Shown piece by piece: positions 5,476 through 18,192 of a stretch of 64,000 nucleotides of DNA. Both the position numbers and the translations under genes were made by a program. The notes beneath the pieces were generated by a model, which did not search any database, was not told the origin of the DNA, and was given only the letters and a program-made list of their open reading frames with translations. Position 1 is the first letter of the stretch, and each line of letters starts with the position of its first letter. The stretch is taken from positions 1-64,000 of the forward strand of contig CALUZA010000047.1 in NCBI GenBank assembly GCA_944325185.1, in the 5' to 3' direction. The stretch is from Candidatus Gastranaerophilales bacterium. GTDB lineage: Bacteria > Cyanobacteriota > Vampirovibrionia > Gastranaerophilales > Gastranaerophilaceae.

Positions 5476-6108
5476 ACTTTTTAAAATAACTAAATTTCTG
5501 TCATAAATTTCTTCTAAAGGCAGTTTATAAGGTATTATCTCGAATTTTGCGTCTTTATAGTTCTTTTTAAAATTTTTAATTTCTTCATCCGAAGATTTTG
5601 ATTTATAAATTAAAAAACTGCCACCTTTACTTAAATGTTTCTTAGATAATTCAAAAACTTTTTCAATTTTTCCGACAGCTCGAGATACAACTAAATCGAC
5701 CCCTAAAGGAGAAACCTCCTCTATTCTTGAATATAAAATTTCAAGATTATCCAACCCAAGAACATCTTTAATCTCTTTTATAAAATTTATTTTTTTAATT
5801 CTTGAATCATTTGCAATTATTTTTTTATCTGGAAAACAAACAGCCAAAATAACGCTTGGAAACCCACCACCAGTACCAACATCCAGCACTTTTTTCTTTT
5901 CTTTAAATTTATCCCATTTTAAAATCGCAAGCGAATCAAAAACATGTTTTTCAAAAATAAATTTTACATCATTTGAGCTCATCAAATTAGTGTGTTCATT
6001 ATATTGAATAAAAGCTTGATACCAAAGATTAAGCTTTTGTATAGTTTTTTCATTTATATTAAAACTAAATTCATTCTTTAAAATTTCAATTTCTTTGTTG
6101 TTTATCAT
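5467..6108 (-). CDS. rsmG: 16S rRNA (guanine527-N7)-methyltransferase RsmG/GidB
   Basis: It methylates G527 of 16S rRNA using S-adenosylmethionine. The 213-residue length is usual. Visible are the N-terminal helical part (YNEHTNLMSSND), motif I VLDVGTGGGFPSVILA near residue 75, the acidic motif II strand IIANDSRIKK, and VDLVVSRAVG with the conserved Arg-Ala of the family. Its start lies inside the 3' end of the NTPase-TPR gene (23-base overlap), so translation is coupled. Loss of this enzyme commonly gives low-level streptomycin resistance in bacteria (family knowledge). Confidence 0.95.
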   Translation of the reverse strand: MINNKEIEILKNEFSFNINEKTIQKLNLWYQAFIQYNEHTNLMSSNDVKFIFEKHVFDSLAILKWDKFKEKKKVLDVGTGGGFPSVILAVCFPDKKIIANDSRIKKINFIKEIKDVLGLDNLEILYSRIEEVSPLGVDLVVSRAVGKIEKVFELSKKHLSKGGSFLIYKSKSSDEEIKNFKKNYKDAKFEIIPYKLPLEEIYDRNLVILKSLN

Positions 6109-8434
6109 ATTTCTCTATAATTAAATTATAACTAACATCGTCAAGACGCATTTTAATATCTTTTATTCTTTGATTAATTCTTGCTATATTTTCATCATTT
6201 GATCCATTTTTCAACGATGCCTTTGCACTTAAGAAATTAATTAAAGCTTTTTCATCATTTCCTCTATCATAATGAAATTCGCCTGCTTCAAAATAAACCA
6301 ATGCAATTTTAAAATCATCATTTAACTTTTGAGCTGACGATAAAGCTTGCTTAAAGTATCCTATTGCTATAACCTCATCAAATTTTGCGTATAACTTTGC
6401 AAGTTCTTTTTGAGAAAAATACATATTTTCATAATCATTTACCTCGCTGTCATACAATAGCGCAAGCTTTAAAAAATCAATAGCTTCTTTATAATTTTCC
6501 AAATCTATATTTATTAATGCTAAATTTGTTAAAGACGCTGAATAATACTTATTTTCATTTCTTTCCGAGCTTATTGTATAATTTTTTCTATAATATTTTA
6601 TTGCATTTTCAATGTCTTGATTTTCATCATACAAAACACCAAGCTTATAATATATTTTTGCAGTCAATTCTTTGTTTTTTCCTAAAGCAATAGACAAAGC
6701 TTTTTCATAATTTTTTATAGCGTCATGAATTTTTGAATCTGCCTCATCAATTTGAGCTATTTCAATATAAGCACGAATTCTGTAGCTTTTTGAATTATTT
6801 TCATTTTGCACTATAGCTTTATATCTTTCTTTTGCATCATCAATTCTATATAAATTTTTAAAACAATTTGCAATAAAATATTCAAGCTCGCAAACCCTTG
6901 AATCACCGTTTTTTAAAGCAATATCAAGTGCAGTTTCATAAAATTGTTTTGCAACTTTATATTCATTCAAACATTCATGATTTTTTGCAACCAAAGTCAA
7001 AATCTCAATTCTAAATTCACCCTCAAAATCAACCTCGTAAGCTCTTTTAAGCTCCGAAAGAGAATCTTGATATTTATAATTTTTCGAAAATTCACGAGCG
7101 CTATTTATAAGATTAATTATAAATAATCTGTTTTTTTCTTTGTTCTCGTCTATTAATGATTTTTGACCCGAATCTTCCAACCTTTTTTTAATTAATAAAT
7201 CATTTTCTTCTTTTGTTAAAAATTTCTTTCTTTCCTTTATTTTATTTAATTTTTCAGATAATTTAGTTTTTTGATGCAATTTTTCATCATGCCATGAAGA
7301 TGATGTAATTCCCAAATATGAAAAGGTTTTCTGGCTTTTTTCAGGAGAATTTATTGCAGGAATAAGAGAATTAAAAAGCTCAATTTCCTTTCTTATAGAT
7401 TCTCTTGATAATCTTAAAAGCCTATCTTTTGGGCTCTTTGTTAATTCATTTTCATAAATTTCAACTAAATTTTTATAATAAGTTATTTTTTCTTGTATAG
7501 AAAAGGTTTTAACAATATATTGTTTAAAATAATCTTTTACATATATTTCATTTTTAAAATGACTTATTAAAAAGTTTTTAGACAAATATTCTATATGCGA
7601 AACATCGCCAAGTTTATATTCTTTTAAGAAATCTACACTGACAGGATGAGACAATGTACATAAAATTTTAAATAAATCTTGATATACGCTTGGAGTCAAA
7701 GAAACAAACTTTGAAACCATAAATTCTTCAAATCCGATTTTTAAACTTATATTCTTTCTTTCAAACTCAGAAATTAAATCTCTTATTAAAATACCTGTGA
7801 CACTTGAATATTTAACTGCCATTTTTAAATATAACTCAAGCCCCTGAGTAATATTATAAAACTTATCCTTTAAATCATCATCTATATCTTCGGATAATAC
7901 TGAAAGTTTCGACTTAAATTCGCTTTCATCAATCTGTTCTATTTTAATTGTTTTAACTCTAATCTTTTTAAATCTAAAAGCATTAGCACCGGTATTCCTC
8001 GATACGATGATAATTTTAACGTTTTCATAACTTGCAAGATGAGAAAGAAAATCTATAATTTCATTATTTTTTTCAACTTTCTCAAAATTTTCAACAATTA
8101 TTACACAATTTGCATTTATAGTTTTAAAATAATGACTTACTTTTTCTTTGAAATCTCCTTCTGTAAACTTTTTTAAAGAAATTTTTTGTGCCAATGAAAA
8201 ATTTCTCAAAGCATCATAAAAATTTAACAAAAAATCATCGATTACGGAATTTTCAAAGCAAAACTGTTGAAACACAAGGTTTTCATCTTCCAATTGGGGT
8301 ATAATTTTACCTATTGTTTCGCTTTTCGCAGAACCTTTCGGGCCATCCATGTAGAGTAAGTCAAAAGTAGATATGACAAAATTTAAAATTTCATTTATAA
8401 TGGAACTGTTAAATTGAAAAAAGCCTTGAGTCAT
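6086..8434 (-). CDS. STAND-like P-loop NTPase with TPR repeats
   Basis: About 782 residues. The N-terminal region has a P-loop, GPKGSAKS, near residues 31-38; a Walker-B-like strand VIIVENFE near 113; and a sensor-like strand IIIVSRNTG. A winged-helix-like region follows, then from about residue 400 many tetratricopeptide repeats of 35-40 residues (for example YKEAIDFLKLALLYDSEV). This order, NTPase then helical repeats, is that of STAND signalling ATPases such as MalT. No DNA-binding or nuclease effector domain is visible at either end. I chose ATG 8434 because TACAAT ends six bases before it; the ATG five codons upstream has neither a ribosome site nor a spaced -10 box. Confidence 0.75.
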   Translation of the reverse strand: MTQGFFQFNSSIINEILNFVISTFDLLYMDGPKGSAKSETIGKIIPQLEDENLVFQQFCFENSVIDDFLLNFYDALRNFSLAQKISLKKFTEGDFKEKVSHYFKTINANCVIIVENFEKVEKNNEIIDFLSHLASYENVKIIIVSRNTGANAFRFKKIRVKTIKIEQIDESEFKSKLSVLSEDIDDDLKDKFYNITQGLELYLKMAVKYSSVTGILIRDLISEFERKNISLKIGFEEFMVSKFVSLTPSVYQDLFKILCTLSHPVSVDFLKEYKLGDVSHIEYLSKNFLISHFKNEIYVKDYFKQYIVKTFSIQEKITYYKNLVEIYENELTKSPKDRLLRLSRESIRKEIELFNSLIPAINSPEKSQKTFSYLGITSSSWHDEKLHQKTKLSEKLNKIKERKKFLTKEENDLLIKKRLEDSGQKSLIDENKEKNRLFIINLINSAREFSKNYKYQDSLSELKRAYEVDFEGEFRIEILTLVAKNHECLNEYKVAKQFYETALDIALKNGDSRVCELEYFIANCFKNLYRIDDAKERYKAIVQNENNSKSYRIRAYIEIAQIDEADSKIHDAIKNYEKALSIALGKNKELTAKIYYKLGVLYDENQDIENAIKYYRKNYTISSERNENKYYSASLTNLALINIDLENYKEAIDFLKLALLYDSEVNDYENMYFSQKELAKLYAKFDEVIAIGYFKQALSSAQKLNDDFKIALVYFEAGEFHYDRGNDEKALINFLSAKASLKNGSNDENIARINQRIKDIKMRLDDVSYNLIIEKYDKQQRN

Positions 8435-8440
8435 AGTATT

Positions 8441-8446
8441 ATTGTA
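8441..8446 (-). promoter_or_regulatory. -10 box (TACAAT) for a leaderless start at 8434
   Basis: On the minus strand TACAAT ends six bases before ATG 8434, and TTGCAA stands 18 bases further upstream as a possible -35. No Shine-Dalgarno sequence is present. Confidence 0.5.
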
Positions 8447-8564
8447 CATAATTTTTTACATTGTTTGCAATAGTATAAATATTCGAGCATAAATATACAA
8501 AACAATAGTTGTCATAACCAAAAAGCTTACTAGTTGTGCATTTTACGGTTTAAATAATTATTAA

Positions 8565-8608
8565 AAATTGTAAAGAATATTTAACAAAAAAGGCAAATTT
8601 TACAATTT
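8565..8608. repeat. Inverted repeat AAATTGTAAA / TTTACAATTT upstream of the GH13 operon
   Basis: Two perfect 10-base arms at 8565-8574 and 8599-8608 are separated by 24 bases. They lie 44-87 bases upstream of the first gene of the membrane-protein/GH13 operon, a sensible place for a dimeric regulator to bind. The right arm contains TACAAT, which may itself be a -10 box. A regulatory role is inference from symmetry and position. Confidence 0.35.
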
Positions 8609-8651
8609 AGTGTTGTTAATTTAAATGTGTGTTTAGTTGTTTGGGGTAAAA

Positions 8652-9659
8652 ATGCAACAAGTTTCATATAAAAATAATTTTGAAAATCTGCCTGCAATAG
8701 GATATCGCAGCTCAAAAGACGAGAAAAGAGAGAATATATATAAAACAGAATCACACATACCCAAACAAGGACCTCTTACCGGAGCAAAGGTAGGAATACA
8801 TAAATTTACAAATGATATATTAACTTATTTTCCAAAAGGCTTTTCAGGCTCCAAAAACAGCAGTTTTTATGAATATCTTTCATTAGGTATGGTTCCTTAT
8901 GTAATAGGAAGCGCAATGCTTATTGCCCTATATAGCGCAGCCAACAAAGATTTCAATTTGAAAGACAGAAATATAGCCTCAGGAATAGCAAAACAAGTCG
9001 GAGCGGGTGTAGTTTTATACGGTATAGGCAACTGGCTTTCCAAAAAAATCGCTCATATGGGAATACATGCTTCTACGGGAATTAATCTTGATTGGAAACT
9101 TTTGGATAAAGTAAATGAATTTCCGGAAATTGGCCAAGAAAAAGGTCAAATAAGAACTAAATATCCCGGAATTTTTGATTCTGCAGATTTTCCAAGAAAA
9201 GATAAAACTGCTCTATGGGGAGAATTGGAACATGGAAACATCTATGCTTATGAAGATATGATTTTAAAGAAAGCAGGATATAAAGACAAGCAAAATGCAC
9301 CAAACCAAACAGCATGGCCACTTATAAGACAAGTAAAAGTGAGAACAACTGCTCTTGAAAACATAAGCAAATATATTGTTGCAGCAACAGGGGTAGCTTT
9401 AGGTTCTCAAGAAGCATTTGCAAAAATAAAATTGAAACAACCAAAAAGCATACTAACCGCACTCAAAGATGGTTTCAAAGAACTTTGGAAAGGCACCGAA
9501 AGAAATGCCATAACCAAACATTACGGAAAAGCACTCCTTATAGGCTCGGCTATAGCAACATTATTGACTTGGTTAATCCCTACTATAGGATTTAAATCCA
9601 AACCTCAAACCATGAAGTCTAAAGTCGACACAAAAAGAGAATACGAGGTGGTACAATGA
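8652..9659 (+). CDS. Multi-pass membrane protein, first gene of the GH13 operon
   Basis: This 335-residue protein belongs to no family I can name. About four hydrophobic stretches are visible: around MVPYVIGSAMLIALYSA, GAGVVLYGIGNWL, YIVAATGVALGS and a strong terminal one (LLIGSAIATLLTWLIPTIGF). A soluble segment with charged and Trp/Pro residues lies between the second and third. The N-terminus is polar (QQVSYKNNFENLPAIGYR), with no cleavable signal. ATG 8652 has GGGG six bases upstream; an in-frame TTG at 8637 is less likely. Its stop overlaps the next start (ATGA), so the genes are coupled. It may be a distant paralogue of the next gene's N-terminal region. Confidence 0.75.
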   Translation: MQQVSYKNNFENLPAIGYRSSKDEKRENIYKTESHIPKQGPLTGAKVGIHKFTNDILTYFPKGFSGSKNSSFYEYLSLGMVPYVIGSAMLIALYSAANKDFNLKDRNIASGIAKQVGAGVVLYGIGNWLSKKIAHMGIHASTGINLDWKLLDKVNEFPEIGQEKGQIRTKYPGIFDSADFPRKDKTALWGELEHGNIYAYEDMILKKAGYKDKQNAPNQTAWPLIRQVKVRTTALENISKYIVAATGVALGSQEAFAKIKLKQPKSILTALKDGFKELWKGTERNAITKHYGKALLIGSAIATLLTWLIPTIGFKSKPQTMKSKVDTKREYEVVQ

Positions 9660-12373
9660 CAATAACAGTAAGTCCTATCTTGCAAAATCATTTTAATAAT
9701 AAAGCCGACAATAAAAAACTAAATGCTCACCATGAAAAATTATATGAAGATTTAAAACAACATGCAAACGAAGTTAAACCCAATGAAGCAAAAGCAAAAC
9801 TGGTAAAAAGAGGACCCGTTAGGGATACTATTGCAGCTATTGGTGATAACATTAATGACGGTAAAAACTTTTTTACAGCCGTAAAAACAGGCAAAATGAA
9901 CGATAACAGCCTTGGAAGAATAAACGACTTAGGTATGAAGTTTGGCGCTGTTCTTATAGCATCATTTTTAGCGGCAACTCAAGCCAAAACAAAAACCGAA
10001 ACATTAATGAAATTTATAGGTGGCGGAGCATTTTTTGCTTCAATGTCATTATGGCCAAAAATATTCATAAATCTTCCAGCAAGAATTATCCACGGTTTCC
10101 CTATTGACGAAAAATACATAAGCGCACAGGGAGATAAAAAAGACCTATATCTTGATAACCAATTTATTCCCACAGGCATACATTCAAAAGAACAAAAGCT
10201 TCGCGAAATGAAAAGAATGGGAATTGATCCAAACGAGCCAAATGCGGAAGAAAAATGGTTCAGAAAAAGACAAAAAACAGCTTTACAAAATAGAACTTTA
10301 TGGATGGCAACAGCAGGCTTTGCTACTCCTCTTATGACAGCTCTTTTCTGTGACTTTGCTGAACCTAAAATACAAAATGCAATCATAGACCACAATTTCA
10401 AAAAAGCAAAAAACATATTACTTGATAATAATCAATTAAATGAATTTTTATTAAAACAAACAAACACAACAAATAAAAAAGGTATTCAAAGCTTGTTTGC
10501 AGAATTTGCAGGCAAAGATTTAAATGATGAATTTTATAAAAAACTATCCGGCTTGCTTGAAATTTCAGACATTTTTGACAAATTAAAAGATCAAAACGAC
10601 AGAACCGTTCTGCAAGAATTAAAGTCAAATGAATTAATAGAAGCCCTCAAAGCAATGCGAGAAGAAACAGGCGAACTCAATATAGAAGATTTAAAAGAAA
10701 AGCTTGGAAAAATTAAAGTAGCCACATCGAAAGGGCTTCAAGTTGGTGCCAAAAAACAAGGTTTAGATACAGATACAATAGAAGAAATTGTTTCGGAACT
10801 TGGAAACGAAAAAACTCCAAAAAAACTTAGAGAAATTTTAAATAGAAGACAAATAGGAAGACCACAAATAGACGAATTAATGCCGACATTAAAAGTTGAC
10901 AACGAGCCATTCTTTAAAACAGTTATAAATTACAACGATAATATTCTATCAAAAATAAGAGGAAGAATAAAAGCATATCTTGGATTATTAAATCCTATCG
11001 CAGGTTCAAAAGCAGAATCTGTATATACAAGACAATATAGCAATATAATGCAACACATATTTAAAGCATTGGGTCTTGATGACTATAAAGAACTCAAAAG
11101 AATGAAATCTCAAGGTCTAGAAACAACTGTTGATATATTACAGTCAAAAATAGCAGAAATTGTTGAACAAAAAGACAAAGAATACGCATCTAAACTGCAA
11201 GATTTTATTGATATTACAGCAAAATATTTACAAAGCGGAAAAAAAGATCCCGAAAGCTTTAAAAATGGTTTAAGAAATGCTTTTGGAGATAATTTCCCAC
11301 TTCTTAAAAACCAAGGACAACTTGATGAATTTATGAAATTCATTAAACCTGATGCTACGGGTACCAAAGTAGATCCTGAAAACCTAACTTGGTTAATGCA
11401 AATTATGGAAGATTATTCCAAAAACGTAAAAGAAGCCCCAAAAAGAGCTTCAATTGAAATTCTTTGTCCAATTAATCTCAAAAATGAAGAAATAGCAGCA
11501 TCTAAAAAACTCTTTGATACATCAACAATAATGAAATTATTCTCTGTACATACTGACGATAAGGAAGCTTTCAAAAAAATAGATGCTCTTTCAAGCGCTA
11601 TAACCGCATTTATTGACAGCAAAGATAAAAACGACACAGTAAAACAAAATTTAAAAGAAGCACTACAAAAAGTTCTAGGTCAAAACGCTGATGTTGCAAA
11701 CGCAGGATTTGAAAATTTTGCAACACACATAAAAGAAGGCAATTATGTTTGGATTGATGAATTAATAAAAGGCAGCAACGCTAATCAAGCCTTAACTCAT
11801 GAGATTTTAGGCGGAAAAGAAAAACCAAGTCATCTATTCAATATGCTAAGAGAATACATGAGATTTAAAGATGCAGACATTAACTTCACAAGACTAAGAC
11901 CTTTAATATGCGCTAACTTTGAATTTAGATACCAAAAAGGAATGTTTGCCGGCTTTAGCGAAGAAGAAATTAAAGCCGCAAGAAATCTAATCTACAACGG
12001 CAATATTGCATTAATAAACAATAAATTATCACTACCATATGAAGAAAATGCAAGAAACATACTTAATGCAATATTCAATCCGGAAGTCTTTAAATCCGAA
12101 ACAGCAACAGCAGAAAATATTGCAGATGTCATAGGAGAATTAAAAACAATAATTAATCAACCGTATGACACAAATGTTAAAGCAGTTAAAGCTAACAGCT
12201 TTGCTGATCAAGTAAAAAATCATGCAACAAAACTATTTAACAATAAATCTTGGAAGAAAATATTTATTCCAATGGCAATTGGGCTTGTTGCAGTAACACT
12301 TCTAGTGCAACCTTTATTTGGAAATATTAAAAAAGAATACTCTCAAAACAAAAAAACAGGAGGTGCTAAATAA
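9656..12373 (+). CDS. Large membrane protein with a long helical domain, GH13 operon
   Basis: A 905-residue protein I do not recognise. The N-terminal 250 residues hold about three hydrophobic segments (GAVLIASFLAATQA, IGGGAFFASMSLWPKIFINL, TAGFATPLMTALFC). About 600 residues of charged, helix-rich sequence without cysteine pairs follow, and one membrane span lies at the extreme C-terminus (IFIPMAIGLVAVTLLVQPLF) before a basic tail. The soluble domain is thus tethered at both ends. The start MTITVSPILQNHF shares the SPxL motif with the next protein. GAGGTGG precedes the ATG, which overlaps the previous stop; the next gene starts on the last base of its stop codon. It is probably a scaffold or envelope component; the function is unknown. 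Confidence 0.75.
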   Translation: MTITVSPILQNHFNNKADNKKLNAHHEKLYEDLKQHANEVKPNEAKAKLVKRGPVRDTIAAIGDNINDGKNFFTAVKTGKMNDNSLGRINDLGMKFGAVLIASFLAATQAKTKTETLMKFIGGGAFFASMSLWPKIFINLPARIIHGFPIDEKYISAQGDKKDLYLDNQFIPTGIHSKEQKLREMKRMGIDPNEPNAEEKWFRKRQKTALQNRTLWMATAGFATPLMTALFCDFAEPKIQNAIIDHNFKKAKNILLDNNQLNEFLLKQTNTTNKKGIQSLFAEFAGKDLNDEFYKKLSGLLEISDIFDKLKDQNDRTVLQELKSNELIEALKAMREETGELNIEDLKEKLGKIKVATSKGLQVGAKKQGLDTDTIEEIVSELGNEKTPKKLREILNRRQIGRPQIDELMPTLKVDNEPFFKTVINYNDNILSKIRGRIKAYLGLLNPIAGSKAESVYTRQYSNIMQHIFKALGLDDYKELKRMKSQGLETTVDILQSKIAEIVEQKDKEYASKLQDFIDITAKYLQSGKKDPESFKNGLRNAFGDNFPLLKNQGQLDEFMKFIKPDATGTKVDPENLTWLMQIMEDYSKNVKEAPKRASIEILCPINLKNEEIAASKKLFDTSTIMKLFSVHTDDKEAFKKIDALSSAITAFIDSKDKNDTVKQNLKEALQKVLGQNADVANAGFENFATHIKEGNYVWIDELIKGSNANQALTHEILGGKEKPSHLFNMLREYMRFKDADINFTRLRPLICANFEFRYQKGMFAGFSEEEIKAARNLIYNGNIALINNKLSLPYEENARNILNAIFNPEVFKSETATAENIADVIGELKTIINQPYDTNVKAVKANSFADQVKNHATKLFNNKSWKKIFIPMAIGLVAVTLLVQPLFGNIKKEYSQNKKTGGAK

Positions 12374-14283
12374 TGACAAACATAATCATTAGTCCGCTTA
12401 TAGCACAACAATTAAAAATAAATAGTGCTCAAACTAATTATAAAGCACCTGCAAAAAACACTGATATAAAAGCGACCCCAGCTATTAATCAACAATCAAG
12501 CAAACCGTTATTTTTGAGTCCGCTTTTAAGAGAAAGTATTCTCGCTCAATCAAAACAATTGTTAAATAAAACATCTGCAATAACTCCAAGCACTCCATTA
12601 TCAGGAGTTGAAAACTACAAAAACAATTTAAAATCAATGTTTTTGAGTAATGAAGCTCAAGTTTTAGCAGTCATAATAAGAACAATGAATGCTCAAGATA
12701 CAGACGGAAACGAATTAATCCAAGGAGATGAAAAATCAGGAAATTTAATCAACGCAATAGACAGATTGGATGAAATCAAAAATACCGGATTTAACACTCT
12801 ACACATCCTTCCCATTCACCCCACAGGAAAAACACATGCAATGGGAACAGCAGGCTCATTGTACTCACCTCTTGATTTTCTAACTATCGACCCTGAAATT
12901 GTTGATGAAAACCCTCCTGAAAAATATAAAAAAAGAATTGAAGACATATATTTTCAATTAACAGGTAAAAAACTTACAAAAATGGATAAAAATGACCCTG
13001 ATGTTGCAAAAGCACAGTGTAAACTTTTTATAGAAGAATGTCACAAACGTAATATCAAGGCAATGCTTGACTTACCTTCCTGCGGAAGTGTTGATTTTTC
13101 CAAAGCGCATCCTGAAATGATGGCAGTAGATTCAAACGGAAAAGAAAAAGTACCCCAAGGATGGCAAGACATAAGAATGTTAAGACCATTTAAAAATGAA
13201 GAAACACGCGAATTAAACGAATCAGTCCTTGATATGCACAAAAAATATGTTGATATGTGCATTGAATTAGGTTTTGACGGTATAAGAGCAGATGTAGGAA
13301 GAGCTAAACCTGTTGAATTCTGGAATGTAATAATAAAATACTCACACGCAAAAGATCCTGAATTTGCTTGGTTAGCAGAAACATACACCCATGAAGACGC
13401 TTCTCCGCAAGTAAATATGCCATACGACCGACCAAGAGAACTTCTTGAAGTAGGCTTTGATGCATATTATGGACAATATCACATATTTAACGAATGGACT
13501 CAAGCACAACAACTATATGACTACGTTAAAGAAAATATAGATATGAACAATGAAATAGGAGAACCAAAGTCACTTCTAGGTTCATTTGCAACTCACGATG
13601 ATTCTTCTCCTATGTTATATGGCGGAGCTCCTTGGGTAATGTTTACAAGCATTCTGCAAAGTATGCTACCTCAACTAAATCCATATATAGTTGACGGTAC
13701 ACAAACAGGTGATTATTACATCTATCCTTATGACCACGCAAAAGTAAGAGATACTCAAACAGATAACCATGAATGCACTGTTCATACAGGAAGAATAGAC
13801 ATATTCAATAGATCAAGAAAACCGGGAGGAAAATTCCCCGAAATTGAAAATGTTATAAGAACAGCATTTGCACTAAGAGATGGAAGATATAACGAAATCA
13901 ATAAAAATTCCAACATCAAGTTAAACATGCAAAATGCAAAAGATGTAATTACAAAAGGTTCATTTATAATACTTCCATCAAACAACCCCGAAATAATCTC
14001 ATTTGCAAGACATAAAGACGGAAAAACTTTATTATTTATCGGCAACAGGAACGTAAACAGACCTATTGGCGGCACAATTAATATCCCCGGCTTAAAACCG
14101 GATCAAAAATTTAACAACCTTATGCCCAAATACGGTGAACCTTGCAAATTCCAAAATAATCAAAACGGCAGCATAACAGTTGAAATGGATCCTTCAAAAG
14201 CATGTGTATTTGAAATCGATAATGCTGACATTGAAAAATTATCAGATCCAAAAAATGTTATGCAACAAAAATATCTAAATTAA
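12373..14283 (+). CDS. GH13 alpha-amylase-family enzyme, no signal peptide
   Basis: A 636-residue TIM-barrel glycoside hydrolase of the alpha-amylase clan. The four GH13 regions are recognisable: region I with Asp233 (MLDLPS); region II GFDGIRADVG with nucleophile Asp307 and Arg305; region III LAET with acid/base Glu336; region IV FATHDD with His408-Asp409. The catalytic triad is complete, so activity on an alpha-glucan is expected; hydrolysis versus transfer cannot be told. The first 95 residues are a low-complexity, Ala/Gln/Asn-rich leader without a signal sequence but with SPLI (7-10) and SPLL (49-52). A beta-rich C-terminal domain (about 540-620) follows. GGAGGTG precedes the start. Confidence 0.85.
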   Translation: MTNIIISPLIAQQLKINSAQTNYKAPAKNTDIKATPAINQQSSKPLFLSPLLRESILAQSKQLLNKTSAITPSTPLSGVENYKNNLKSMFLSNEAQVLAVIIRTMNAQDTDGNELIQGDEKSGNLINAIDRLDEIKNTGFNTLHILPIHPTGKTHAMGTAGSLYSPLDFLTIDPEIVDENPPEKYKKRIEDIYFQLTGKKLTKMDKNDPDVAKAQCKLFIEECHKRNIKAMLDLPSCGSVDFSKAHPEMMAVDSNGKEKVPQGWQDIRMLRPFKNEETRELNESVLDMHKKYVDMCIELGFDGIRADVGRAKPVEFWNVIIKYSHAKDPEFAWLAETYTHEDASPQVNMPYDRPRELLEVGFDAYYGQYHIFNEWTQAQQLYDYVKENIDMNNEIGEPKSLLGSFATHDDSSPMLYGGAPWVMFTSILQSMLPQLNPYIVDGTQTGDYYIYPYDHAKVRDTQTDNHECTVHTGRIDIFNRSRKPGGKFPEIENVIRTAFALRDGRYNEINKNSNIKLNMQNAKDVITKGSFIILPSNNPEIISFARHKDGKTLLFIGNRNVNRPIGGTINIPGLKPDQKFNNLMPKYGEPCKFQNNQNGSITVEMDPSKACVFEIDNADIEKLSDPKNVMQQKYLN

Positions 14284-14334
14284 TGTTTTAAAAAATAAAC
14301 TAAAGGGAATAATAAAACTATAAAAGGAAAAGTT

Positions 14335-17300
14335 ATGGATTTATCTATTAAAAAAATAAAAGAAAACAACTTAAAATTTAAAGGTATGAAAGGCTCATAT
14401 ATGCCTGATAATACCCCTATATATAAATTCATTGCTCCACCCTTTGACAAAAAAAATGAAAGAGTAGTTCTACAAGTTATTCTAGCGGACAGAAGCGATG
14501 AAACAAACCAATATGTCCCAAAAGAACAAAAACCATTTGAGTACAAATTTAACTCTGACGAACCTGTAATACTGGGACAAAAAGAAGTTAAAAGTTTTGC
14601 CGAAGGATTTGTATACAGATATAAAATTATTAATAAACAAACAAACACAGCAAGGTATACAACCGATGATTCCAAAAAAATAAAACTAAAAGACGGTAGT
14701 GAATATAACTTAATAGAACAAAACAAAAATTACATAATAACTCCAAAAACAGGTACAATGTATCATACCTTTGTAGATTCTGATGCAATTTTAGAACTGG
14801 GTGAAAAATTAAAAACAGCTGACCCTGATTTTGTTAGAAATCACTTTAATAAACTTGGAGGAAGCATAAAAGGTCTTACCTTTTTATTAAAAAATACAGA
14901 CGAACTTAACGGCTTCAGATACATAATCTCAACACCTGACATAGGAAATGACAGCGTTTCAAGTCACAAATACTGGCCAAATAATCAATACCAATGTACA
15001 AATATTGAAGATTTTAAAGAATTTGTATTTGAACTATACAAAAGAGGTAAAGGCTATGTTGCAGATGGTGCTTTTACTTCACAGGGTATAGAATCACCAA
15101 TGATACAACATATTTTAAAATGGGGAAAATCTTCTCCATTCTTTCATATGTTTAAAATTGACGATACACCTGAACTTGGCATTTTGCCTGATAAAACATA
15201 TAACGACAGCAAAGATCCCTATGAATACATAGCTGTTCGTGTAGTAAAACCTTCAAATTTACAAAAAGGCCCTATATACTTACAATTCTTTGATAAACGC
15301 CTTGTAAGTGACGAACAACTTGAAAAAACGGATAAATTAATAACTGCATACGACAAAAATCCTGATGATCATTACGACATAACTACACATCAAGATTCGG
15401 TAATACCATATTATTTTGAAATCAGCCCAGATAGTGAAAAATTAAAAGTTTTCAGAAAGAAAGATTTTGTGCTATTAAAAGACCTGCACGATAATTTGGA
15501 TGATTTTTTAACTTTTGATTATTTCAAAATAGGCAAAAAAATGGGCGCTAAAAGTGCAAATTTCTGGGAAGGCAACAGAGACATCATAAAAATGAATCTT
15601 TCCAACCCAACAAATCAAAAAGAAAACTATCAAGGCTACATAAATGCAAGAAACTACTTATATGGTGTTGCAAGCTTCTGGACTGAAACAATTCAATCCG
15701 ATTTAATCTTGCAAACAGCTTCAATGGACAACAGGGAAAAAGAAAAAATAGCTAATAACAACGGAATTTCAAGTGCTCAACTAAAAGAAATCAAAAAAAC
15801 GCTTGCAGATATGAGATCCCCAATTTTGGAACAAAACAAAACTGTTGACGAATATATAAGAGAATTTCCTCTGCAATCACTTGAAACTAACCCAAATTTA
15901 GGTGCAATTTTTTCAGAACCCGAATTTAACAAAGAATTTTTATCACACGGAACTTTTGAAAAAATTAATTCAATTGTTCAAAACACTATCAATCAATCCA
16001 TTCCTGATGAATATAAAAATAACGAAGATTACAGAAAATACGTTGTAAAATTATACACTCCTACAATAATCAAAAATATCCTTGCAGGAGCACTTGACCC
16101 CAATTCAATTAAACAAGGCGGACAAATTGACCAAAACATACTAAGAAATGTTTCTCTGCAAACTTTAAATGCTGACAAGGAAACCACTGTTCAAAACGAA
16201 AGAACCAAAGTAATAAGAAAAATAAGCAGTGCTATAAATGAAAAAGCTACAAATGAAATCAAAGCCAAAATGACAGAGGAACTAAATAATATTTCCTTGG
16301 ATGATTTCAAACTCGCAGAAAGCATTGTATTACAAGGCAGAGCAGGTCTAAACTGGAGATTTGACGCAGCTAAAGACGTTGGTGATTTTGACAAAATCAA
16401 AAGTAATCAAGCCTCTCTTGAAACGATTATGGAAGGGGATGAAAAAAGACCCGGCGTAAAAGATTTCTGGACCAATTTCATTTCAAATATCAGAAAATAC
16501 AATCCTTCATCATACATAATTGCAGAAGTTACAGAATTCTGGAATTATGTAAATAACGGTGATAAAGTATCAGAAAGAAATTTTGACCGCAAACTATCAA
16601 AAATGAAAGATTTGCTTCCTGACAGTGAAAAAGGAATACAAGAAAACCAGCTTCCTTATATAAAAGAAAACGAATTCATAAGCGAAATAGGTGCTACAAC
16701 AAGCTCCAATTATACCGCATATTTTAACAGCCTATCAGCAATTTTAGGAGTTAATCCAGAAACATACAAACAAGATATATTCCTTGATGCGGGAAATTTA
16801 ACGCAATTAAAAAACAAAACAGAAAACTATATCAAAAGCGTTCAACCAAATAATGCTCTTTTATCTCACATGTTTGTTGAAAACCACGATAAACCTCGTA
16901 TTTTACACACTCTGCCTTTAGATATGAGCATATTTTCCAAAGACACAATGAAAGATTGTTCTCAAGAACAAAAAGATAATGGCGAAATAAAAGAATTAAC
17001 AGAAAACAGAACAGACTACAATAAAATTTCCGCAAAAGCTGTTGCCGTAGGCTTATTAATGCGAAGAACAATATATCAAATCTATGGAAACGACTATACT
17101 AAAAAAGAAGCTCTTATGCGTTCTCTTAAAAATCTTGTAAACGGCAAAGCATCAGATTCTTCAAAACCAAGTTACAAAAGAGCAGAAGCTTTCGGTGTTA
17201 CCTCTTATGAAATTTCAATAAGAGATTTGTTTAAAAACGCAGGATACAATAACGAAGATGAAATATGGAATTTCCACCACACAATGCTTGAAAAATCCTT

Positions 17301-18192
17301 GGAAATGCAAGAAGGCTTGTGGGAAATTATGGGCGCAATTGTAGGTACTCCTACAATGTACTATGGCAATAATTTTGCACAAACAGGCTTTGAAACTCCA
17401 AATAGAAACGTGTATGTCCAAAACAGAAACCAAGCATTACACGAGATAAAAAACAGAAAAGAATACCGAGATTATTATAATAAAATGAATGCAATTTCAG
17501 GTTTATATAAAGAAAATGGACTAAGTGCACTCAGGGACGGGTTTGCTGTTTCTCTTAAATATTCAAGCACAACCGACAACAACCATCCTGCAGCAATTTT
17601 ATATTTAAGAGAAAAAATTGCAGATTATGCAAGAAACACAAATCAAGACTTTAATGGGGTTATTAATACATTAAGAGAAAAAAGAAATACGCCGGATGAA
17701 TTTAACAGATTTGTAACTCAAGATTTGCAAATTAATCCTTCAAACGGCAACGTTGATATTCTTAATAGAACTTTAGATATGATTAACCCAAGTGACCCTT
17801 CATCAAAAGATTTTGTTGATTTATGGCCAGTCTATAAATATGATGAAAGCGGTTCAAAAGTAATTAGTGTTATTACAAACAATGGCATTCCAAGACGTGC
17901 AAAATCTAATGAAGCATATAACTTTACCAATGAATATTCAGTTAAAGGAATACCCATCAAGGACAATCAGAATAACTGTCCTTTGGAAAATGGCACTATA
18001 TTAAAAAGAAAAGTATATAATTCTCAAGCAAAAAGATTTGTTGATGATGAAAAAACTTATATTGTACGAGATGGCAACATTCAAACAAAAGATGGTAGCA
18101 ATATAATAATTAAAGACACTGTTGCAACTTTCTATGTTCCAAAGAATGATGAACAACAAGTTAGATATAAGGCAAGTGCCGGAATATACTAA
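14335..18192 (+). CDS. Very large GH13-like enzyme with a long insertion in the barrel
   Basis: This 1,285-residue protein starts with a polar leader containing KFKG and has a beta-sandwich-like N-terminal region (about 25-140) as in branching or debranching enzymes. The GH13 regions are spread out: region I YVADGAF (Asp244), region II WRFDAAKD (Asp677, Arg675), region III IIAEVTEF (Glu731), region IV FVENHDKPR (Asp852). All three catalytic acids remain, but about 430 residues separate regions I and II, where normal enzymes have about 60-100. The C-terminal part (about 1130-1285) looks beta-rich. There is no signal peptide. AAAGGA lies six bases before the ATG, 51 bases after the previous GH13 gene, so it is in the same operon. 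Confidence 0.8.
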   Translation: MDLSIKKIKENNLKFKGMKGSYMPDNTPIYKFIAPPFDKKNERVVLQVILADRSDETNQYVPKEQKPFEYKFNSDEPVILGQKEVKSFAEGFVYRYKIINKQTNTARYTTDDSKKIKLKDGSEYNLIEQNKNYIITPKTGTMYHTFVDSDAILELGEKLKTADPDFVRNHFNKLGGSIKGLTFLLKNTDELNGFRYIISTPDIGNDSVSSHKYWPNNQYQCTNIEDFKEFVFELYKRGKGYVADGAFTSQGIESPMIQHILKWGKSSPFFHMFKIDDTPELGILPDKTYNDSKDPYEYIAVRVVKPSNLQKGPIYLQFFDKRLVSDEQLEKTDKLITAYDKNPDDHYDITTHQDSVIPYYFEISPDSEKLKVFRKKDFVLLKDLHDNLDDFLTFDYFKIGKKMGAKSANFWEGNRDIIKMNLSNPTNQKENYQGYINARNYLYGVASFWTETIQSDLILQTASMDNREKEKIANNNGISSAQLKEIKKTLADMRSPILEQNKTVDEYIREFPLQSLETNPNLGAIFSEPEFNKEFLSHGTFEKINSIVQNTINQSIPDEYKNNEDYRKYVVKLYTPTIIKNILAGALDPNSIKQGGQIDQNILRNVSLQTLNADKETTVQNERTKVIRKISSAINEKATNEIKAKMTEELNNISLDDFKLAESIVLQGRAGLNWRFDAAKDVGDFDKIKSNQASLETIMEGDEKRPGVKDFWTNFISNIRKYNPSSYIIAEVTEFWNYVNNGDKVSERNFDRKLSKMKDLLPDSEKGIQENQLPYIKENEFISEIGATTSSNYTAYFNSLSAILGVNPETYKQDIFLDAGNLTQLKNKTENYIKSVQPNNALLSHMFVENHDKPRILHTLPLDMSIFSKDTMKDCSQEQKDNGEIKELTENRTDYNKISAKAVAVGLLMRRTIYQIYGNDYTKKEALMRSLKNLVNGKASDSSKPSYKRAEAFGVTSYEISIRDLFKNAGYNNEDEIWNFHHTMLEKSLEMQEGLWEIMGAIVGTPTMYYGNNFAQTGFETPNRNVYVQNRNQALHEIKNRKEYRDYYNKMNAISGLYKENGLSALRDGFAVSLKYSSTTDNNHPAAILYLREKIADYARNTNQDFNGVINTLREKRNTPDEFNRFVTQDLQINPSNGNVDILNRTLDMINPSDPSSKDFVDLWPVYKYDESGSKVISVITNNGIPRRAKSNEAYNFTNEYSVKGIPIKDNQNNCPLENGTILKRKVYNSQAKRFVDDEKTYIVRDGNIQTKDGSNIIIKDTVATFYVPKNDEQQVRYKASAGIY

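Follow-up and report, generated by a model that had tools for sequence, protein, structure and literature searches.

Gene organisation of the locus

The window (the whole stretch of 64,000 nucleotides analysed) comes from a member of the Gastranaerophilales, the non-photosynthetic relatives of the Cyanobacteria, and carries four consecutive genes on the forward strand, here called A to D. Gene A (8652-9659) encodes a predicted membrane protein of 335 aa with four hydrophobic helices, which belongs to no known family and is a paralogue of the N-terminal domain of B, while gene B (9656-12373) encodes a predicted membrane protein of 905 aa made up of a three-helix N-terminal core, a variable centre and a single C-terminal helix. 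Gene C (12373-14283) encodes a GH13-type enzyme of 636 aa with a low-complexity N-terminal tail, nearest to the AmyB/3DHU/GlgE group, and gene D (14335-18192) a GH13-type enzyme of 1285 aa with large insertions in its barrel, nearest in sequence to neopullulanase and cyclomaltodextrinase; both lack a signal peptide. The A/B junction is an ATGA at 9656-9659, the B/C junction a TAATG at 12371-12375 in which the stop codon of B overlaps the start of C, and 51 bases lie between the stop of C and the start of D, so that the four-gene operon of the original prediction was exact in coordinates, order, strand and junctions. Across the other loci read, the junctions within A-B-C are likewise mostly overlaps or gaps of a few bases. 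Divergently oriented next to the operon is a gene on the reverse strand (6086-8449) for a 787-aa protein with an ATPase-like start, TPR repeats and a weak PADLOC TPR match; a gene of similar size occupies this site in close relatives only.

Predicted membrane proteins A and B

Insertion of A and B into the membrane is predicted from hydropathy, which places hydrophobic helices at about residues 74-94, 112-133, 229-250 and 293-313 of A (of which the second and third emerge from the family average alone) and at about 91-111, 119-139, 213-233 and 868-888 of B. Both proteins had been described as large and multi-pass; several hydrophobic helices are indeed present in each, and "large" suits B but not A. 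The soluble part of some 600 residues held between membrane spans that had been noted in B corresponds to the roughly 635 residues separating its third and fourth hydropathy helices. The helices are moderately hydrophobic, and a topology could not be derived from charge bias, as positively charged segments flank most helices on both sides and the pattern gives no clear orientation. The three-helix core of B (about residues 77-240) is conserved, whereas its centre evolves fast and ranges from 330 to 693 residues in length; identity to a congener is 44% in this part, against 86% in the helical core of B and 88% in the GH13 domain of C.

Profile-profile comparison showed A and B to be paralogues, with residues 40-236 of the B profile aligning with A (probability 97, E 8e-11). 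A search of ten genomes with the A profile gave at most one A and one B in each, except in G138 (family f9), which has two cassettes. No credible Pfam family was found for A or B of the window, nothing consistent matched in Pfam when their relatives were scanned singly, and no Pfam or NCBIfam transporter or membrane family scored above cut-off. PDB sequence searches with the A and B profiles returned only chance matches, mostly to helical proteins or haemagglutinin, and the PADLOC models of anti-phage defence gave zero matches for A to D. A confident AlphaFold model of A (pLDDT 85, pTM 0.79) contains four long hydrophobic helices; Foldseek found nothing in the PDB below E 0.001 for this model, and its best VIA Z, 5.6, is a value that ordinary helix packings also reach. 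Judged by sequence, the predicted A/B membrane module is a new protein family.

GH13 enzymes C and D

The original prediction had assigned complete catalytic triads to both enzymes, and the Asp, Glu and Asp of GH13 regions II-IV are present in each. In C, R305, D307 and E336 are found in 30/30 relatives and D409 in 29/30, while in D the residues R675, D677, E731 and D852 are each conserved in 24/24. The proteins of the window are themselves poorly recognised by Pfam, with sub-threshold hints only for C and no credible family for D, and PF00128 is matched at E<=0.01 by 25/30 relatives of C and by 13/24 relatives of D (best 4e-25). D is accordingly placed in GH13 as a candidate member, by the alpha-amylase domain match together with the catalytic residues. 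No curated subfamily fits either enzyme; against the curated NCBIfam model of cyclomaltodextrinase (GH13_20), the best relative of D reached 34 bits where the cut-off is 540.

The profile of C is closest in the PDB to AmyB of Thermotoga neapolitana (4GKL, E 1e-32) and the alpha-amylase of Lactobacillus plantarum (3DHU, 1e-25), followed by the maltosyltransferase of Thermotoga maritima (1GJU, 3e-25) and by GlgE, the alpha-1,4-glucan:maltose-1-phosphate maltosyltransferase (3ZSS, 9e-18). In a model of a relative in which C is fused to B (residues 526-986), the GH13 barrel and the C-terminal beta domain of the alpha-amylase fold are both predicted, with Z 34.3 to 3DHU and about 33 to AmyB and GlgE (3ZSS, 4U33) over 400-411 residues, and Z 30 to 1GJU. 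AmyB and 3DHU share the catalytic residues of C, but only about 22% identity, and have DxxxNH in region I where C has DLPSCAS; to our knowledge they have no membrane partner. The T. maritima enzyme differs in being soluble as solved, at 19% identity. Regions II and III of C (KPVxFW, LAE) resemble those of GlgE, which suggested that C could itself be a GlgE, and both proteins lack the Asn-His of region I. Assignment of C to GlgE was rejected, as NPPKKY, the maltose-1-phosphate-binding motif of GlgE, is not conserved and aligns to a KTPQGW-like stretch (ektPqgW in the C profile). C also lacks a counterpart of the N-terminal region of GlgE, having a short low-complexity tail in its place, and the alignment begins at GlgE residue 249.

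The D profile is nearest to the cyclomaltodextrinase, neopullulanase and maltogenic amylase group (1EA9, 1SMA, 1J0H; E 3e-33), with the start and end of the barrel covered, but D is about twice as long and has insertions of about 150 and 200 residues before the region II strand. In region I most relatives of D have DGAFVNEG, against DAVFNH in that group, and thus lack the usual Asn-His; in C, DLPSCAS or close variants are present in nearly all relatives, with only the Asp kept. The DxxxNH of region I is usual but not universal in GH13, and its loss in both enzymes hints at an unusual reaction or subsite. Genome G070 has a partial second D-like gene (G070:C17:10-2427) that is 44-45% identical to D of the window, compared with about 26-32% for that genome's own D (on C7), and horizontal transfer between genera is a possible origin.

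C and D show no signal peptide, and neither do their relatives where read, which bears out the earlier description of both enzymes as lacking a secretion signal. A paralogue of C of about 515 aa that does have one, here called C2, is encoded elsewhere in the genome in most species of the family (L079 (G000:C18) 8554-10101, and likewise at L081, L082, L083, L084 and L086).

Distribution and linkage of the cassette

The order was represented by 117 species genomes, of which 109 were found to have A, 110 B, 111 C and 108 D. In 108 of the 109 genomes A and B share a contig at a distance of no more than 6 kb, and so do B and C in 109 of 110; the single exception in each case is at a contig end. The association is not due to chance. 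When 386 genomes of the phylum were searched with the A profile, it was found in all but one of the genomes sampled from the family of the window, in those sampled from two further families of the order and in one f9 genome; there was no match outside the class and none in photosynthetic cyanobacteria, and the matches listed included no member of f10 or f12. A search for C in 194 genomes of the class indicated the families f9 and f15 as additional carriers, and in the f9 and f15 loci read, A, B and C are in the same order.

D is usually retained, but its linkage to A-B-C is looser, and where it adjoins them it does so in two arrangements. In the Gastranaerophilales it can be directly downstream of C on the same strand, as in the genus of the window, in G091 and G115 and in the deep families f3, f5 and f7, whereas most f1 genera have it at a separate site in the genome. 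In f9 it is upstream and divergent, beside A but on the other strand at five loci, and on another contig in G142. Two genomes that keep A-B-C and are each 99% complete, G045 and G112, have no D, while G020 (66% complete) has C and a fragment of D at a contig edge.

A, B and C are all missing from six species (G002, G009, G011, G015, G022 and G024), in which searches with the D profile gave nothing or weak general GH13 matches, without a D orthologue. As other sampled species of the genera of G015 and G022 keep the set, the genes were probably lost together, and cleanly, on at least two occasions; family f2 (G002, G009) is likely to represent a further loss, while the joint absence in G011 and G024 is less certain, these genomes being 88% complete. 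The co-occurrence of the membrane genes with the GH13 genes, by which the original prediction was to be judged, is thus nearly constant in relatives, D being the looser member, and the finding that was to refute it, membrane genes lacking the GH13 pair in the majority of relatives, did not emerge.

Fusion of B and C

At three f9 loci (L103, L105 and L107), B and C form a single protein of 986, 1082 and 1030 aa, respectively, which matches both the C profile (6e-151, 7e-125 and 1e-134) and the B profile (8e-47, 1e-38 and 6e-40); at other f9 loci they are separate. A single protein in these relatives ties C physically to the membrane protein, and the three fusions are the strongest evidence for a physical attachment of C to B. 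Of the two cassettes in G138, the one at L103 has the fused gene with D adjacent and the one at L106 is unfused.

Glucan metabolism in the same genome

The genome also encodes a canonical GlgA, a GlgX-like debranching enzyme and a secreted SusG-like amylase, as well as a second GT5 synthase of 959 aa (L120 (G000:C30:10000-27000) 5999-8878; PF08323 E 1e-18, PF00534), which has an INFKS start and two N-terminal hydrophobic helices, and of which similar long forms are present in several relatives. Together with C2, these genes indicate that alpha-glucan metabolism is present, and the canonical GlgA and the helix-bearing GT5 make alpha-glucan and membrane-linked glucan enzymes plausible in this genome; besides the cassette, at least one further glucan enzyme looks membrane-linked. 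A tie between the cassette and this GT5 was rejected, since the distribution of the synthase does not strictly follow that of the cassette. GlgA is present in the cassette-less G002 and G009, and the cassette is therefore not needed for glycogen synthesis as such.

Proposed function and alternatives

We propose, with a probability of roughly 0.55, that the cassette is a membrane-tethered alpha-glucan-processing complex on the cytoplasmic side. Tethering of enzyme to membrane is the part that is well supported by the sequences, and glucan processing in these bacteria would probably take place at the membrane. The paralogous proteins A and B would form the anchor, probably together, in what we take to be an A-B pair, and C, as a relative of the maltose-acting AmyB/maltosyltransferase/GlgE group, would sit at the C-terminal end of B. 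D would be a more distant GH13 partner in function, kept usually but not always, and only perhaps anchored to the membrane itself. The substrate may be an alpha-1,4/1,6-glucan or maltodextrin, derived from stored glycogen or imported oligosaccharide, and the reactions of C and D could be either hydrolysis or transfer. Because C alone lacks a signal peptide in most species and C2 has one, C is most simply placed in the cytoplasm, and the C-terminal end of B to which it is fused would then be cytoplasmic as well. The linkage of A, B and C in the order and two families, the three fusions and the joint absence in six species support this reading. Of the possibilities raised in the original prediction, the membrane-tethered glucan-processing machine is supported in part, mainly through A-B-C; D is the looser partner, unlinked in most genera and missing from two near-complete genomes.

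The strict linkage of two paralogous multi-helix proteins to glucan enzymes could also be explained if A and B were a channel or gate for the import of alpha-glucan or maltodextrin, where C and D would act on the incoming sugar from the cytoplasmic side, and the secreted GH13 enzymes of the same genome would supply maltodextrins outside. We consider this unlikely, as A and B match no transporter family and no transporter fold stands out, the cassette has neither an ATPase nor a binding protein, and ordinary permeases could serve. As a speculative option to which we give little weight, A and B could be a dedicated machine for passing alpha-glucan chains through the inner membrane, working in concert with C and D attached to it; no transporter is known to serve the mycobacterial capsule, the best studied of the exported alpha-glucans.

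The opposite direction, in which A-B exports an internally made alpha-glucan to the surface and C and D trim or transfer the polymer, draws on the modelled closeness of C to GlgE and on the membrane-linked GT5 synthase. In mycobacteria, GlgE belongs to the metabolism of exported glucans. For the capsular glucan of mycobacteria, the exporter is given as unknown in a recent review (PMC11046441). The lack of the GlgE maltose-1-phosphate motif in C, the absence of evidence for a surface glucan in these bacteria and the imperfect match between GT5 and cassette distribution make export improbable.

Similarly, C and D might act outside the cytoplasm as a surface starch-degrading complex that uses an unrecognised export route, and an exported complex had been among the original suggestions. 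The fast-evolving centre of B, with its range of lengths, behaves as exposed domains often do, and the charge bias is compatible with an outward C-terminus of B, but as C and D have no signal peptide in any relative read, and the secreted C2 does, we regard this as a poor candidate. Alternatively, the tether may bring C and D to a lipid-linked substrate, such as another alpha-linked glycan or a membrane glycolipid. The missing region I Asn-His in both enzymes and the lack of a fitting curated subfamily would agree with an unusual substrate, but the enzymes of closest structure all use alpha-glucans or maltose derivatives, and we think it quite improbable. Nothing supports the closed intracellular glycogen compartment that had also been suggested, and no shell protein was identified.

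The enzymes of bacterial glycogen and maltodextrin metabolism are usually regarded either as soluble in the cytoplasm or as secreted. Within the open-licence literature no described system of this make-up was found, in agreement with the initial impression: genome studies report, in the portions accessible, starch and glycogen use and no such system (PMC3787301, PMC4040986), and the terms membrane-bound, membrane-associated and transmembrane are not used in the accessible part of the review of prokaryotic alpha-glucan enzymes from 2024 (PMC11046441). The cassette is real and, within that literature, previously undescribed; its enzymes belong to a known superfamily, and the membrane module and the physical coupling are what is new. 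An order of animal-gut and environmental bacteria and two related families keep a cassette tying GH13 enzymes to a new membrane family. If the proposed complex is correct, glucan metabolism would be organised at the membrane, two structurally uncharacterised protein families would be defined, and there would be a handle on the physiology of a non-photosynthetic cyanobacterial lineage known mostly from genomes.

Minor sequence features

The N-terminus of D carries an FKG-like motif. Many unrelated lineage-specific proteins have a polar start with an ISFKG-, INFKS- or VTFTG-like motif in the first 5-25 residues, as seen in D itself (14335-18192) and at L120 4366, 5076, 11510 and 12183, L122 3689, L095 7636 and L111 13690. 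A role as a lineage-wide sorting tag was rejected, since the motif was enriched only 1.2-4.2-fold at residues 1-20 in a crude test on about 500 proteins, and in D it is a conserved part of the D family itself. A small conserved protein of 113-115 aa with an MVDNR...FKS start, encoded at 123-464 of the window and at L095 2696-3043 (G013), is also present in distant families of the order.
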